NCBI GenBank assembly: GCA_002839315.1
Contig: PGXV01000001.1
Coordinates: 248,001-312,000, forward strand
From: Spirochaetae bacterium HGW-Spirochaetae-3
Lineage (GTDB): Bacteria > Spirochaetota > Spirochaetia > Treponematales > UBA12059
Direction: 5' to 3'
Length of the DNA stretch: 64,000 nucleotides
The translations under genes and the position numbers were made by a program. The notes beneath the pieces are model-generated. The model was not told the DNA's origin, did not search any database, and saw nothing but the letters and a program-made list of their open reading frames with translations. This document shows, piece by piece, positions 41,969 to 50,308 of this stretch; position 1 is the stretch's first letter; each line of letters begins with the position of its first letter.

Positions 41969-43645
41969 CTAGGATACGCGATTCAACTCGTCCAGGACGA
42001 CCGTGGAGCACCAGGAACGAGTCTGTTCGAGGAGTTCGTACGGGGTCGGCGGCGAATCGCCCGCCTCGCGCCTGAACGCCGCCGCGGACGGCAGCATCGT
42101 CATCCATACGTCCTTCTCGTGGGCGCCTAGCCCGTCGAGGTACGCGGCCGCGTGACGATACGGCGCCGGTAGCGCCAGGATGTCCTGGGCGTAGGATTCC
42201 AGGAAGGCCGCGGGCTTCTGGTACGCTCGCCCGGCCGCGAAGACCCTGCCTTCGGTATGCTTCGATCCTCTCGCGCCGCGATCGGTATCGGCCGCGACGC
42301 CGTAACCGCGCACCCGGTCCAGCCTGCATGGAATCGTCGCCGATAATCGTTCTAGCCGTTCCTTGTACATGACGAGCGGCTTCGTCACGTAGCGGAAGCA
42401 GCCGTCGCCGTCTTCTTCCCTGTCTATGGACTGGTTGCGGTACAGGAATTCCGAGAACAACGACTCGGAAGGACGTAACCGAGATTGCCTGATATCGAAG
42501 TACGGGTATATGTACGTGCCGCGAGCGTAGCTCTTGCCGAACGGGTACGAGAAATCGGCTCCGAATATCCTCGCGACCGACGCGCCGAGGTACGAGGCGA
42601 GCGATACGGCGGCGTGCGTCACGTTACCGCCCGAGGTGTCCAGGACGGGGAAGGCCCTGTAACGGGACATGATGTACCTCGATAACGGATGCCCGGACGA
42701 GAAGAAATACGGTTTCGACGCGAGGCGGGACACCGTCGGGGGAGAGGCCAGGTCGAGGAACAGCGGAATCCGCTCGGGTAGGCCGAGGGAAAAATGATAG
42801 TAGCTGATATGCTGGCAGTCTATGCTTATGACGGCGTCTGGCTCTATGCCGCGCTCGAGGAGCGCCCGCAGGCTCGTATCCGTGGCGATCAGGAAAGCGC
42901 CCTTGGGTCGTCCGGCTATCTCGTCGAAGGAAGCCTCGAGCGACGGACCGGCCGCGGTCACGTAGGCCTCGCGTATAGGGCCGACCGGAGGCGTCGGCTT
43001 GTTGGATATCTCGAGGTTCCTGACGATATTGGAGAACCAGCGCTTGCCGAAGAACGACTGCACCGAATAGTCATCCGATATGACGCCTATCGCGCCGCGG
43101 ATCGAGTCGGCGGCGTTCTGGAACAGCGCCGGGGCCGCGTCGATACGGCCCCGCAGCGGAACCGATACGAAGTCCCCGGTTACCGCGGGTACGTAGCCCG
43201 TCGCCACGGCCTCGTCCAATTCACCGGCGGTCGGATCGACCAGAAGGCGCAGTCGCCTGTCTCCGAGTACGTGGGTTAGATCGACGAGCTCTAGGACCGA
43301 CCTCATGGTCGAGGCTCCGTATTCGATAATAAGGCCCTTCGCGACGAGCCCCGTCTTCAGTAGCGCCGCCACCTCGTAACCGGCTCCGACTCCGAGGAAA
43401 ACGTAGAATCCCGCCTTCTCATAGTGCTCGGCCAGGCGGGCCGCCTCGCGTACGGGATCGAACCGGGAGTGCATGAAGGCTTGCCTGTCGCCGAGATCGA
43501 TGTACGGTACAAGCGATCCGTCGCGCGTCGTGACGACGCGTACGCGGTCGTCTGCCGAGGCGGACCTGAGTCGGTCGGCGCAGAGCGGTCCGTGCCGCGA
43601 AGCCACGGCGAGCATATTGCGTTCGAATATCTGCGGGTCTAGCAT
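41969..43645 (-). CDS. Maf/DUF115-family motility accessory protein 1
   Basis: 558 residues; GGAG 5 bases before the ATG. The core (about 200-420) is DUF115 (MptE/Maf-like): YVTAAGPSLEAS, LIATDTSLRALLERGIEPDAVISIDCQ, SGGNVTHAAVSLA and an IFGADFSY block. Maf proteins transfer nonulosonic acids such as pseudaminic acid to flagellin in several bacteria; spirochaete flagellins are glycosylated in some species, so that role is plausible here. It overlaps the second Maf gene by 7 bases, and the two share a FHSR[FY]DPVREAAR block, showing they are tandem paralogues. Confidence 0.78.
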   Translation of the reverse strand: MLDPQIFERNMLAVASRHGPLCADRLRSASADDRVRVVTTRDGSLVPYIDLGDRQAFMHSRFDPVREAARLAEHYEKAGFYVFLGVGAGYEVAALLKTGLVAKGLIIEYGASTMRSVLELVDLTHVLGDRRLRLLVDPTAGELDEAVATGYVPAVTGDFVSVPLRGRIDAAPALFQNAADSIRGAIGVISDDYSVQSFFGKRWFSNIVRNLEISNKPTPPVGPIREAYVTAAGPSLEASFDEIAGRPKGAFLIATDTSLRALLERGIEPDAVISIDCQHISYYHFSLGLPERIPLFLDLASPPTVSRLASKPYFFSSGHPLSRYIMSRYRAFPVLDTSGGNVTHAAVSLASYLGASVARIFGADFSYPFGKSYARGTYIYPYFDIRQSRLRPSESLFSEFLYRNQSIDREEDGDGCFRYVTKPLVMYKERLERLSATIPCRLDRVRGYGVAADTDRGARGSKHTEGRVFAAGRAYQKPAAFLESYAQDILALPAPYRHAAAYLDGLGAHEKDVWMTMLPSAAAFRREAGDSPPTPYELLEQTRSWCSTVVLDELNRVS

Positions 43646-45198
43646 GCTTCTCCAAGCGTTACCGCTAGGGCGGCCTCGCGAGCGGCCGCGTCGGCGGCGG
43701 CGGCGGCGGCGACCGTCGACTGACCGCGGGCCGCGTCGGCGATAAGGGGCGCTGCCGTCTTCGGAGCGAGCGCCTTGTAGAAGAGCGTCGCCTCGTACGG
43801 TAGCGGCGTACCTTCTTTAATTGCGGCGAGGGACGCGTATAATGATCGATCGGCGAGGGCGCACAGCGCGTCGCGCATGGCGGCGCGAGTATCGGCTTCC
43901 GTCCTGCGCCGACGGCCGGCCAAGGGCATACAAACCGGAGGTTCCCCGGATCCGCCCATGATATCGTCGATCCCGCCCCTGCGCATGCCCGTCTCGATCG
44001 GTGACGTTCCGGAGCGGAATACGCGGTCCTCGTCTTCCGGGCTCGCTCGTATCGTCGCGGCATAGGCCGAGAAGGCTCGTGAACGGCGCCATGGGCCTGA
44101 CGGTTCCGGATACCCGGTCAGGACGCGGGCCGTTCTCGCGGAAAGCGCCGGAGATAGTCTCGCCTCCGACGTCTCGTCGAGGACGTCGAAGGAATACGGC
44201 CTGCAATGCTCTTGGAGGCCGAGCGCGGCGAGGTCATAGCCGGCGAGCAAGACTCGTCCGCTCGTCAGCCGCAGCGCCAACGCGAGGGCGCTACCGGCGG
44301 CGCTACCTGCGGGACTAGTGCGCTCGGAAGACAGCCCGGCGGCGTCGATGGCGATACGTTCGAAACAAAGCCCTGTATCGAGTGATAGTACGTCCGAAGA
44401 CGAAAGCGTCTCTCCGGAAGCGAAGGCGCTCGGCGGCATGGCTATCGGTATACCCGCGTCGCGAGACGCCCTGAGGTGCGAGCCGTTCCAGAATCCAGGA
44501 TCCGTCGATACGGTCATATCGGGCCTGAGCCCTCCCTTGAGCAACGCGGGAACCGCCGACGCGAGAGCCCATAGCGCTATGTCGGCACGGACGCGGCGTA
44601 TGCCGGGCAGCGATGACTCGAGGCTCGGGCCGGCGCACGCTACTACTATGGGGCCGTCGCCGCGTGCGACGGCGGCTTCGCCCGAGACGGCGATCGCGAA
44701 GCGAACGCTATTGCGTAGCCACCTCGAGGCCCAGAATCCCGTCGTGGCCGAATCGGCGCTCGCTGTCTCGAGCACGTCCCTGAGCACGCGCCTGATGCGC
44801 TCCGAACCCGCCTCGAAACGAGCGACCACGGGAGGCCATTCCACGATGGCTACTCCTCCGGCCAGGCGATTGTCGGCGACGGCCATGGAGATAGTCGCGT
44901 ACAAGGACGACCCGCTGGACGGAGACCACCTGAGCGAGGGCGAATCGAGTTCCTTGCCGTCGAAGATATCGCTCGGCTGCAGCGATACCCTGGTCGCCTT
45001 CGGAAAACGCTCTGCGGCGACGGATCCTATGTAGTTCAATCCGCCGCCGATAATGAATATTACTGACGGACGCTTTCCGGCCAGCACGGCGTCGACGTGC
45101 CGCGCCGCCTCCCTGACGGGATCGTATCGGGAATGAAAGGAGGAAGGAGTCGAATCCGCGATCGGCGCGGTTCGGCCGTCGACGTTACCTGAGGCCAT
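43639..45198 (-). CDS. Maf/DUF115-family protein 2 (shorter, diverged paralogue)
   Basis: 519 residues from the ATG at 45198; an ATG pair at 45234 is an alternative. Neither has a ribosome-binding site; the first keeps a 14-base overlap with the upstream gene. It shares FHSRYDPVREAAR and the CAGPSLESSLPGI, ALLKGGLRPDMTVSTD blocks with the neighbouring Maf protein, but lacks its first 50 residues and several conserved motifs, and its tail is Ala-rich. It may be a non-catalytic partner or have a different acceptor. It lies in the same minus-strand run as the acidic protein. Confidence 0.72.
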   Translation of the reverse strand: MASGNVDGRTAPIADSTPSSFHSRYDPVREAARHVDAVLAGKRPSVIFIIGGGLNYIGSVAAERFPKATRVSLQPSDIFDGKELDSPSLRWSPSSGSSLYATISMAVADNRLAGGVAIVEWPPVVARFEAGSERIRRVLRDVLETASADSATTGFWASRWLRNSVRFAIAVSGEAAVARGDGPIVVACAGPSLESSLPGIRRVRADIALWALASAVPALLKGGLRPDMTVSTDPGFWNGSHLRASRDAGIPIAMPPSAFASGETLSSSDVLSLDTGLCFERIAIDAAGLSSERTSPAGSAAGSALALALRLTSGRVLLAGYDLAALGLQEHCRPYSFDVLDETSEARLSPALSARTARVLTGYPEPSGPWRRSRAFSAYAATIRASPEDEDRVFRSGTSPIETGMRRGGIDDIMGGSGEPPVCMPLAGRRRRTEADTRAAMRDALCALADRSLYASLAAIKEGTPLPYEATLFYKALAPKTAAPLIADAARGQSTVAAAAAADAAAREAALAVTLGEAC

Positions 45199-46086
45199 CG
45201 ATGAACGAGCCGATGGCGGCTCCGGCTTCATCATCCGAAAGCTTGAAGGACGCGTACGGGCCGGTCGCGAGGCGCTTGGTATCCTTAATCGACAGGACGC
45301 GGGCGAGAGTTCTCGTTATCTGCGTCGCTATGAGCTCCGCGTCGCCGAACGCATGGCCAAAGAAGGCGCAGAGGCATACGCCTTGGCGCAGGCTGAAGGC
45401 GCGCGCGGTAGAGCCTAGCACGGTGGCTATATAGGCGTACAGCTCGTCGTTAACGGAGGCGGCGGTAGAATGCGGGCAGAGCGCGATCGTTTTCTCGGTT
45501 ATAGCCGTCGCGTCCAACCTGAATAGCGACACGTATGGGAAATTCCTTCGCGCTCCATACTTAAGGATCGCATCGACGTTCAAGAACGGCTCTATAGGAT
45601 GCCTGCTCTCGACTATCGCCGCGACGCTCGATATGGAAGCGATACGATGCAATTCCTTGATAGCGTCGGCGGACGGGGAGGATGTTTCCGGGTTGAAGAA
45701 ATAATGACCGGGGCGTATCTCTATGGCTATCGCGCTGTCGCCGTTGAAACGGAACGGGACCTGAGAAAGCAATGAAACGGGGAGAGTATCATGACGCGAC
45801 AAGCCCGACGACGCGCGTTCTACGAGTTCGCCGGATCTGCTGACGAAATAGGCTCCCCACGGCTCTCCGTCCGAGACGACGGCCTCGAACGATAGCCTGA
45901 TGCCGAGGAAGGGGTCGGTTATCCCGCTAAGCCTCTCTACGACGGATACGGCCGACGTGGCCGGAGCCGATATCTCCGAAACCCCTATCGCCTCGGAGAC
46001 TTTTTTTTTTGACTAAGGGCCAGGAGGCCCGCGTTCCTGGCGGCTGAATCGCCTGAGCGATTAGCCGCCTTTTCCAATAGACCCAT
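45185..46086 (-). CDS. unknown gene split by an A10 tract (frameshift or slippage)
   Basis: An ATG at 46086 overlaps the upstream stop (TGATG) and opens MGLLEKAANRSGDSAARNAG then LLALSQKKK, which stops after four more codons. The coding frame resumes in another phase immediately at the run of ten A (46001-46010) as KVSEAIGVSEISAPATSA and continues without a start codon through SGITDPFLGIRLSFEA to the end at 45185. A TTG at 45802 is the first start-like codon of that frame but sits mid-protein. With 11 A (or 8) the whole reads as one 300-residue protein. No family is recognised; there is no signal peptide. Its place between the acidic protein and the Maf pair suggests a role in the same process. 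Codon use fits the neighbours throughout. Confidence 0.75.
46001..46010 (-). repeat. A10 homopolymer (slippage site)
   Basis: Ten A on the coding (minus) strand, in a genome region with few such runs. It is exactly where the reading frame of the surrounding gene changes. Confidence 0.9.
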
Positions 46087-48359
46087 CAGAGCAACCCCAA
46101 GTCGTCGAATAGCCGCTTGTACGTGTCGTAATACTCGCTCGAGGCGAATTCCTCTATCTTCTCCTCGGGCAACGAGGCGAGCAACTGATCCAGGTATACG
46201 AGCACCGATTTGACGTCACGCTTAAGCTTGTCCGGCACGGAGGCGCCGGCTGAATCGGTAGCCTCCTCGGGGGCCTCCGGCTCCGTAGCGACGTTATCCG
46301 GTTCTTCGACTATATCCTCAAGCGCGGGCTCGGGTTTCGAGACTGGAGAAGGCTCGACGAACAGGGAATCGTCCAGGCTCGTCGGAATATCCTCAGGATG
46401 ATACTGAACGGGCATCGACTGGAACTGCGCCGGCGCCGGTACCTCGGGAACAGTAGCCGGAGTCACTTCCTCTGGCGATTCCTCCGCCTCGTCCAATTCC
46501 TCGAGAAGATCGTCGGCGGACTCCGAATGGAGATCGAGCCCTCCCATGTCCTCGGGCTCGAGCAGTTCCTCGAGTTCGAAGGCGTCTTCGACCTCTTCGA
46601 TCGGCTCCGGGAACGAATCTACGGTCGAAACGACCGGTTCGTCGTCCGCATCTATATCGAGGACGATCTCGGGTTCGGGCTCGTCATCGGCGGCCTCGAT
46701 GATAGGCAGTTCTTCGTCCTCGTTTCCGAAGGCGGAGTCGACAAGTATATCGAGGTCGGACGGATCGGGCTCGACCAGGGGGACGTCTTCGAGGGGCATG
46801 CCCTCGAGTTCGATTATTTCGTCGTCGGGCGATTCGTCGAGGAAACTCGTATCCTCCGGAAGGCTCGTGAGCGGAGTGACGCCGTCCTGGGCGTCGAGGT
46901 CGATCAACTCCTCGATTTCCAGATCATCGACGGGGGATTCGATAGTTTCGATACCCTGCTCGGGCGTCGAAGCGTAATCGCCGTCCTCGGGAAGCAGCTC
47001 TATATCTTCGGGCACCTCGAGCTGAGGCGCTTCGATCGACTCGAGCGACTCGTCATCGGCGGCTTCCTCGGTAAAGTCGGCGGTATTCAGGATGTTGTCG
47101 AGTTCGTCGCCGGTCAGTGCGATGGTGTCGTCGTCCTCGTCGTCGAAGAACCCGCCCGGAGCGACTTCCTCGATGGACTCCGTATCCGAATCGGAATCCT
47201 CCTCGGGGATGGTAGCGCCGGCGGCCTTGAGGCTGCTGAGCTGACCCCGAAGGCTTACGAGCTCTTCTTTTATCGAAGAAAGCTCCGCCGCTATCTGCTT
47301 GAGGAGATCGGAAGAAGGCTCGCCCGATCCGGCTCCCAGATCGTCGGTAACCGCCCGTATATCGTCGAACCCGTCGCTTCCTTCGGCGGAGTCGCTGATG
47401 GAAACCCTCTCCATTTCAAGGTCGGGGATGATTCCGGACGAATCGTCCGCGTCGTCGTCTATGAAAGAGTCGAGCGAAATGCTGTCATAATCGGGGGTAA
47501 CTGGTTCCGACACCGGTTCTTTCGCGGCCGCCGGCTTCTTTTCCGCCCGCGGAGGCTCTTCGGGAAGCCCGATGGAGTCGATGTCGACCGTTTCAAACTC
47601 AGAAGAAAGGTCGAGGACGTCATCGTCAGTTAACGAATCGACGCTTTCGACGGTATCCAGGGAGGGGATGGTATCGTCGAATTGCAGGTCGATATCGAGG
47701 GATTCGAACTCGTCGGAAGGCGCGACGAGGGACTCGTCCCGCGGCATGGCGATATCTGTATCGAATTTACCCATGCTCTCAAGGGAGGGGGCCCCGTCTG
47801 ACGTCTCGTCGTCGCCTAAGCCGAAGTCGTCGATACTGATTTCGGTAGTATGGAACGCGTCTTCGACGGGCGGCTCGGATTCGCCCAAGAGCTCCTCGGC
47901 GACCGCCTCGGGCACTGGCTCCTCGTAATCGAGCTCGTCGAGCGGTACATCGATAACGGTATCCTCGATGACGCTCTCGTCTATGGATTCCAGGCCTAGC
48001 GGCTCAAGGGACTCGAAATCGAACGCATCCATATCTTCCGGCGAATCCTCCGGCGATTTAGACTCGTCGAGAGGGGAGAGCTCCTCGATTTCATCGAAGC
48101 TCTCTATAAAGCCTTCCGGCTCTGTAGACTCGGCTGTTTCCTCGGGAAGGTCGAATGAATCAAGGATATCCTCTTCCTCTTCGGAAAGGAGGACCGCATC
48201 GGAGCCGTCGACCGGCGTCGCGTCGATAGTCTCGCGATCGATCTTTGGTTCATCGATAACGTCCTGCGGTTCTGCCTTGACCCAAACACCATAACGTTCG
48301 AGCTCCAGCTCTGGCGTAGGAATGGGATCTGTTTTCCCTTGCGGGGCTTTGTTCTGCAT
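46086..48359 (-). CDS. very acidic, mostly disordered 757-residue protein
   Basis: 757 residues, cytoplasmic by sequence, extremely rich in Asp, Glu, Ser and Pro (for example LSEEEEDILDSFDLPEE). The N-terminus has a short ordered motif (ELELERYGVWVKAEPQDV). In the middle, LLKQIAAELSSIKEELVSLR is a short coiled coil, and the last 50 residues (LKRDVKSVLVYLDQLLASLP then EEKIEEFASSEYYDTYKRLF) form a helical module that looks like the functional end. No known family is assigned. The promoter is TTGACA-17-TAGAGT, and the three downstream genes (split gene, two Maf proteins) follow with overlapping ends, so this is one operon. Confidence 0.7.
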   Translation of the reverse strand: MQNKAPQGKTDPIPTPELELERYGVWVKAEPQDVIDEPKIDRETIDATPVDGSDAVLLSEEEEDILDSFDLPEETAESTEPEGFIESFDEIEELSPLDESKSPEDSPEDMDAFDFESLEPLGLESIDESVIEDTVIDVPLDELDYEEPVPEAVAEELLGESEPPVEDAFHTTEISIDDFGLGDDETSDGAPSLESMGKFDTDIAMPRDESLVAPSDEFESLDIDLQFDDTIPSLDTVESVDSLTDDDVLDLSSEFETVDIDSIGLPEEPPRAEKKPAAAKEPVSEPVTPDYDSISLDSFIDDDADDSSGIIPDLEMERVSISDSAEGSDGFDDIRAVTDDLGAGSGEPSSDLLKQIAAELSSIKEELVSLRGQLSSLKAAGATIPEEDSDSDTESIEEVAPGGFFDDEDDDTIALTGDELDNILNTADFTEEAADDESLESIEAPQLEVPEDIELLPEDGDYASTPEQGIETIESPVDDLEIEELIDLDAQDGVTPLTSLPEDTSFLDESPDDEIIELEGMPLEDVPLVEPDPSDLDILVDSAFGNEDEELPIIEAADDEPEPEIVLDIDADDEPVVSTVDSFPEPIEEVEDAFELEELLEPEDMGGLDLHSESADDLLEELDEAEESPEEVTPATVPEVPAPAQFQSMPVQYHPEDIPTSLDDSLFVEPSPVSKPEPALEDIVEEPDNVATEPEAPEEATDSAGASVPDKLKRDVKSVLVYLDQLLASLPEEKIEEFASSEYYDTYKRLFDDLGLL

Positions 48360-49915: not shown

Positions 49916-50308
49916 CTAATCCTCTATCCCGAATAATTTGCGGAAGAAGCTCACGATCGCGTTCCATACGCGGCGGAAGAATCCGGGATTCTTTAGCTTC
50001 TCGAGCCGTTCTAGCGCGATTCCGAGCTCGTCATGCGCGAGCGGATAGCGTTGAACGTTCTCGTCCAGTTCTATCTCGAGCCGCTTGGCGACGTCGCTAT
50101 GGCTAATGACGATAGCCTCTATGCTAGACCACCCGATGGAGCGCGCGGCCTCAAGACGGCGCCTGCCGCTTATAAGGACCTTCTTTGGGGTAATGACTAT
50201 AGGATGCAGCTGCCCGAAACGCTTCATGCTATCAGCCAGCTGGTCTATATCCCTGAGTTCCTTTCGAACCCTCTTTCGTATGCGGATCGACGCTATCTCG
50301 ACTTGCAC
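49916..50308 (-). CDS. stand-alone ParB N-terminal domain with amphipathic membrane tail
   Basis: 130 residues from a GTG at 50308 with GGAGG 6 bases upstream. The ParB/sulfiredoxin-like fold is visible: IASIRIRKRVRKELRDIDQL, HPIVITPKKVLISGRRRLEA (the GERRxxA-like box) and DENVQRYPL (like ENxQR). The DNA-binding helix-turn-helix and dimerisation domains of ParB are absent; instead the end is a basic aromatic amphipathic helix (FFRRVWNAIVSFFRKLFG) that should bind membrane. It follows the PBP1A gene closely on the same strand, so a nucleotide-dependent role at the envelope is an interesting guess. Confidence 0.7.
   Translation of the reverse strand: MQVEIASIRIRKRVRKELRDIDQLADSMKRFGQLHPIVITPKKVLISGRRRLEAARSIGWSSIEAIVISHSDVAKRLEIELDENVQRYPLAHDELGIALERLEKLKNPGFFRRVWNAIVSFFRKLFGIED

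Follow-up and report, generated by a model that had tools for sequence, protein, structure and literature searches.

Why should a conserved bacterial gene carry, shortly after its start codon, a run of ten A's beyond which its coding sequence continues in another reading frame? The question arises in a stretch of 64,000 nucleotides (C11:248001-312000; hereafter the window) within a spirochaete genome of 3.88 Mb in 18 contigs. A first-pass annotation had read one protein across this run and left three explanations side by side: an authentic slippage gene, a phase switch or a homopolymer sequencing error. From the comparison of the locus with its relatives in the Spirochaetia we consider it likely that the A10 tract is a programmed RNA-polymerase slippage site, which would allow the gene to produce both a short and a full-length protein.

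Reading frames around the A10 tract

The features of the locus are compiled in Table 1. On the coding strand the surroundings of the tract read ...CCCTTAGTC AAAAAAAAAA GTCTCCGAGG..., and in the ATG frame the ten A's fill the codons CAA AAA AAA AAG between the first C and the last G. This frame translates to MGLLEKAANRSGDSAARNAGLLALSQKKKSPRR followed by a stop, and the early termination directly past the run, which the first-pass annotation had described, is confirmed. The long frame lies at -1 relative to the ATG frame and encodes a protein reading KKKVSEAIGV...GSFIDGLR. That it lacks a start codon and is nevertheless coding had also been noted, and its translation, codon-position constraint and predicted fold bear this out. 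A stop closes the long frame one codon 5' of the tract, and its first ATG, GTG or TTG is codon 69, with none in the first 68 codons. This first start codon lies inside the folded domain, so a protein begun there in the usual way would lack conserved sequence.

Table 1 Features of the A10 locus and its operon neighbours in window coordinates; the PF01973 cut-off is the gathering score of 34.6 bits
Feature	Position	Strand	Basis
A10 tract, proposed transcriptional slippage site	46010-46001	- (coding)	read directly
Short ORF, MGLL N-terminal peptide, 33 codons + TAG (45987-45985)	45985..46086	-	translation
Long ORF, 274 codons from KKK + TAA (45187-45185)	45185..46009	-	translation
Preceding gene, 757-aa acidic protein, conserved C-terminus	46086..48359	-	ORF list
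First Maf-type protein (PF01973, MptE-like)	43639..45198	-	Pfam, 52.9 bits (cut-off 34.6)
Second Maf-type protein (PF01973, MptE-like)	41969..43645	-	Pfam, 89.6 bits (cut-off 34.6)

In the whole 3.88 Mb genome A10 or T10 runs occur only twice, and longer runs are absent. Lysine is encoded in eight window genes by 85 AAG and 21 AAA codons, so the A10 run is not simply a matter of codon habit. The second ten-base run, a T10, falls in the signal-peptide part of the gene for an RbsB-like lipoprotein (L002:1459-2456; G000 C17 near 89835-89844) and breaks this gene one base short. We considered it as a second slippage gene and rejected it, since an 83%-identical relative in genome G010 is intact without the T-run and the site is hence not conserved; the run may be an error or a mutation, or else a slippage site confined to this lineage. 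Runs of at least nine A's in the window genome (G000) are distributed as three on the plus strand versus 13 distinct ones on the minus strand of the contigs, several of them near contig ends or terminator-like.

Conservation in the family and across the class

A protein search of 99 related genomes gave matches in six, the window genome and five others, all belonging to one genus. The five congeners show 34-38% identity across most of the query and, with one of them represented on two contigs, share the layout of the locus: a beginning ATGGG..., the motif MGLLEKAA.RS, the sequence C-A10-G (A9 in one of them) and a long frame that is out of frame. P0001 as the sole query had no match among the genome contigs searched, and further loci were found by anchoring on the conserved C-terminus of the preceding gene, giving a family sample of 20 genomes with the locus from ten genera. 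Every one of them has A9 or A10 at the same spot. In 19 the long ORF lies out of frame, while in the remaining genome (G012) the A10 run stands at phase 2, in frame, and the gene is intact. In the 19 out-of-frame members the run is always at codon phase 1, behind an upstream segment of 61-106 nt; 17 have A10 and need -1, and two have A9 and need +1, both of the latter resting on single metagenome assemblies. A length that would be in frame at the common phase occurs in no family member. The base that follows the run varies among members (G, C or T). No other run of at least nine A's or T's was present in 57 kb flanking the family loci, and in four genomes (G002, G006, G010 and G011) the site is the sole A10 or T10 of the whole genome. 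Two strain-like contigs of G003, the only within-species sample, both have A10. In several members (window, G003, G006, G016 and G020) the long frame is without a start codon for 64-104 codons, and some members have a TTG, GTG or ATG 5-15 codons past the run.

Coding constraint acts on both sides of the run. Among the congeners, mismatches per site upstream of it amount to 0.21, 0.21 and 0.62 at codon positions 1, 2 and 3 of the ATG frame; downstream, in the shifted frame, the closest pair differs at 64, 44 and 112 sites in the same order. The N-terminal and the long frame are both under codon-position constraint.

The class sample consisted of 120 anchored loci from the window's family and from other families of the order and the class. 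A run of A9-A12 was found in this gene at 60 of them, in 17 families, with A10 in 43; the long frame is one base short (-1) at 39 loci, in frame at 19 and in +1 at two, but these counts are not independent samples since the loci share ancestry. At least one -1 member occurs in 15 families, and f1, f3, f9 and f11 each hold both in-frame and -1 members. Outside the order, the run lies within 175 nt of the preceding stop in 30 of 53 loci, compared to 0.53 expected from the run density elsewhere in the same loci, and the longest-run lengths in these 53 loci are two-humped, mostly at most six or about ten. In loci above 50% GC the run is present in 32 of 57, versus one other run of at least nine A's in 104 kb. 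The MGLLxKA motif is conserved across the class, and in related families the two parts form one continuous ORF.

The run is not universal. In families f2, f4 and f5, and in the greater part of f3 (the treponemes), the gene lacks it and is mostly intact; in a few the gene is absent. The first-pass annotation had named homologues that are all intact without any A-run as a refuting result; such homologues characterize only some other families, namely f2, f4, f5, the greater part of f3 and further ones, and not the window's own. Within f3, a group of treponeme loci (L161, L163, L175, L235, L237, L238 and L240) has A10-A12 in frame directly 5' of KKK[NT]GLL or a similar sequence, and this group is a natural counterpart of the -1 state in the window. 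One in-frame member, L182, has A13 closer to the start. Brucepastera parasyntrophica (L160, at the location of L124) combines A9 at -1 with another frame break beyond it, and its gene may be in decay; the locus is counted in the class tally but carries little weight.

Predicted products and operon context

The short product would be the N-terminal MGLLxKA peptide, with 33 aa in the window and about 15-80 aa elsewhere. For the downstream ORF an AlphaFold2 model with a mean pLDDT of 89.5 was obtained, in which residues ~13-138 resemble GAF domains and residues 138-274 GGDEF domains (Foldseek, VIA-align). The best Foldseek hits are below 1e-3, and residues 138-274 align with GGDEF chains at Z values of about 7-8, which are modest alone. 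DcsBis (PDB 4zmu) matches the GAF-like and GGDEF-like parts in this order, again modestly (Z 8.1, 210 residues, rmsd 7.3). The slippage-gene protein has no Pfam or NCBIfam match. Since the catalytic GG(D/E)EF signature is absent from the 274-aa long-ORF sequence, the modelled protein is probably a non-catalytic sensor or scaffold and not a cyclase.

The ATG of the slippage gene starts on the last base of the TGA that ends the preceding gene (TGATG, with a shared A at 46086). The acidic protein encoded upstream, which has no Pfam match, ends in a C-terminus that is conserved in the 20 family genomes and, within the order, in 352 of 394. The two Maf-type proteins that had been placed in the operon, and which are encoded downstream, were identified correctly, both scoring above the PF01973 cut-off, and their family membership points to a role in flagellar glycosylation. 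The first Maf gene probably starts at an ATG (45198) within the final codons of the long ORF. Such an overlap (SF[IV]DGL / ATGG) is the arrangement in most of the genus; in many other families the slippage-gene end and the Maf start overlap or adjoin. In some treponemes and termite-gut relatives (L155, L156, L162, L166, L171, L174, L062, L106, L108, L113 and L115) the slippage gene is apparently missing, and the Maf gene adjoins the acidic gene almost directly. Elsewhere in the window, a 130-aa ORF on the minus strand (49916-50308) has by eye the look of a small ParB/Srx-type protein with a hydrophobic and basic C-terminal tail.

Proposed transcriptional slippage and its alternatives

Stretches of nine or more A's or T's are sites of efficient slippage by bacterial RNA polymerase, and dnaX transcripts of T. 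thermophilus acquire one or more additional A's, the proportion falling as their number rises (PMC5009743). Where a genome is GC-rich, a long A-run indicates positive selection (PMC1088944). The gene described here combines a run of at least about nine A's with a conserved frame transition, the sequence features by which programmed transcriptional slippage genes are recognized. On the A10 tract RNA polymerase would produce mRNAs with ten A's plus a fraction with extra A's. The unslipped mRNA would be translated to the 33-aa peptide, and an mRNA with one extra A to the full-length protein, in which the MGLL segment is joined to the GAF-like and degenerate GGDEF-like module. Templates in frame or one base short would lead to the same two products in a differing ratio. 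Selection would maintain the run in many families of the Spirochaetia, the window's own among them. Ribosomes that stop just past the run would not reach the Maf start; with the ATG overlapping the preceding stop and the Maf start overlapping or abutting the gene end, the slipped fraction probably influences Maf translation as well; this translation may depend on slippage, and the slipped fraction could in this way set the Maf dosage. Runs of at least nine and mostly ten A's, their occurrence in GC-rich genomes, their indifference to the next base and to hairpins and their phase of 0 or -1 are as slippage predicts. The excess of -1 over +1 templates (39:2) would follow from the addition of extra A's in diminishing proportion, as seen for the dnaX mRNAs of T. 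thermophilus.

The main rival is programmed -1 ribosomal frameshifting of the dnaX type, by which ribosomes would slip back one base on the run into the long frame. We regard it as unlikely, although it accounts for several observations: the codons of the tract contain A_AAA_AAG in phase with the ATG frame, exactly -1 is needed at 39 of the 41 out-of-frame loci, so that those 39 fit equally well, and the in-frame loci would yield a truncated product, as does E. coli dnaX. However, the heptamer needs six A's, yet the out-of-frame members always have at least nine, with two-humped run lengths and a peak at ten. The two A9 members need +1, so the long frame is not always reached by -1, and the base 3' of the run is not fixed. 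When the 20 family members were folded one by one, no hairpin up- or downstream of the run was shared. A clear downstream stem in the window (TCTCCGA...TCGGAGA) was considered as a stimulator and discarded, since relatives do not share it. Slippage at long A-runs requires no hairpin. The short and the downstream ORF could also encode two separate proteins, the latter started independently in or after the run. The short frame ends near the beginning of the long one, which makes reinitiation conceivable, and the start codons 5-15 codons past the run in some members would suit it. But in the window, G003, G006, G016 and G020 the first start is located well within the folded GAF-like domain, reinitiation leaves the conservation of the run unexplained, and the continuous ORF in related families unites both parts; two proteins are therefore highly improbable.

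Long homopolymers mutate, and genes for surface and flagellar glycosylation are frequent phase-variable targets. Replication slippage could hence switch the gene on and off, with the assemblies mostly showing the off state. Such phase variation predicts that about one third of the members are in frame and that +1 and -1 have equal shares; the family shows neither, and the class ratio departs strongly from equality. With 19 of 20 family members out of frame, lengths of nine or ten only, none of them in frame at the common phase, A10 on both strain-like contigs of G003 and its retention over class-level divergence, a phase switch is very unlikely. Homopolymers are also the usual place for indel errors, and the other ten-base run of the genome likewise breaks a gene one base short. 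Nevertheless, the idea of an ordinary gene that was wrongly sequenced or assembled, or was recently disabled by mutation, can be dismissed with near certainty: the same run and frame break recur in independent assemblies of 19 members from the various genera of the family and of 15 families in the class, codon constraint is seen on both sides of the run, and nine-base runs within four other genes of the window genome are all in frame. What stands of the first-pass interpretation is the slippage gene, strongly supported by the conserved run and the conserved out-of-frame state, together with its operon context; the phase switch is improbable, and the sequencing error is refuted.

Implications and comparison with known systems

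In the literature on slippage, programmed frameshifts and Maf proteins in spirochaetes, with subscription journals mostly outside the coverage, we found neither this gene nor a comparable site described, and the GeneTack survey of 2013 included only 10 spirochaete genomes. As a probable case of transcriptional slippage it appears to be new in its gene, in its phylum and in its position close to the beginning of a Maf operon, and the conservation is unusually wide for a slippage gene. To our knowledge, few conserved chromosomal genes depend on polymerase slippage. The strong preference for A10 even in GC-rich genomes, and the alternation of in-frame and one-base-short versions within families, offer a natural experiment on the purpose of slippage, which may be to hold the ratio of two products or to limit the downstream gene. 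In automated annotation such genes are likely to be labelled as pseudogenes or to go without their long part. More tentatively, we propose as a possibility still short of probable that a class-wide slippage valve exists in the Spirochaetia, in which the selected A10 sets the ratio of peptide to full protein and, via coupled translation, the Maf dose, possibly in response to nucleotide pools or temperature. If slippage does set the Maf dosage, the sugar decoration of flagella would be linked to a property of RNA polymerase.

Several known systems resemble the spirochaete gene in part. Its long product shares with DcsBis (PDB 4zmu) a GAF-like domain followed by a GGDEF-like fold; unlike GAF-GGDEF proteins of this kind, it lacks the GG(D/E)EF signature and Pfam or NCBIfam matches. 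In E. coli dnaX a heptamer like that in phase at the window tract directs -1 frameshifting, but there it is short and accompanied by stimulators, whereas here at least nine A's are always present and the family members showed no shared hairpin. In the Shigella genes mxiE, spa13 and spa33, slippage at A- or T-runs acts on one ORF split in two, and the adjacent downstream gene is affected (PMC5009743). The split ORF is a common feature, and the effect on the next gene parallels that proposed for Maf, but the Shigella genes are plasmid-borne secretion genes with an experimentally established effect, while the effect on Maf is deduced from the arrangement of the genes. In Citrobacter rodentium (A11) and Yersinia pseudotuberculosis, the full-length product of tssM is obtained through slippage, and function requires both forms and their ratio (PMC4256274). 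There, as here, the A-run is directly 5' of a premature stop; tssM is a type VI secretion gene with a late tract in two species, whereas the spirochaete tract is class-wide and near the start. Both frame states are also known for dnaX, that of Thermus thermophilus having an in-frame A9 and that of the Chlorobi being a split gene with mostly A10 out of frame (PMC1088944, PMC3711429). These are replicase genes with a late tract, for which slippage was demonstrated by experiment in Thermus, whereas the spirochaete gene is GAF/GGDEF-like, has its tract near the start and is known from its sequence. Common to both are the long A-run on the coding strand, the in-frame and split-ORF states among relatives and, as predicted for the spirochaete gene, products of two lengths.
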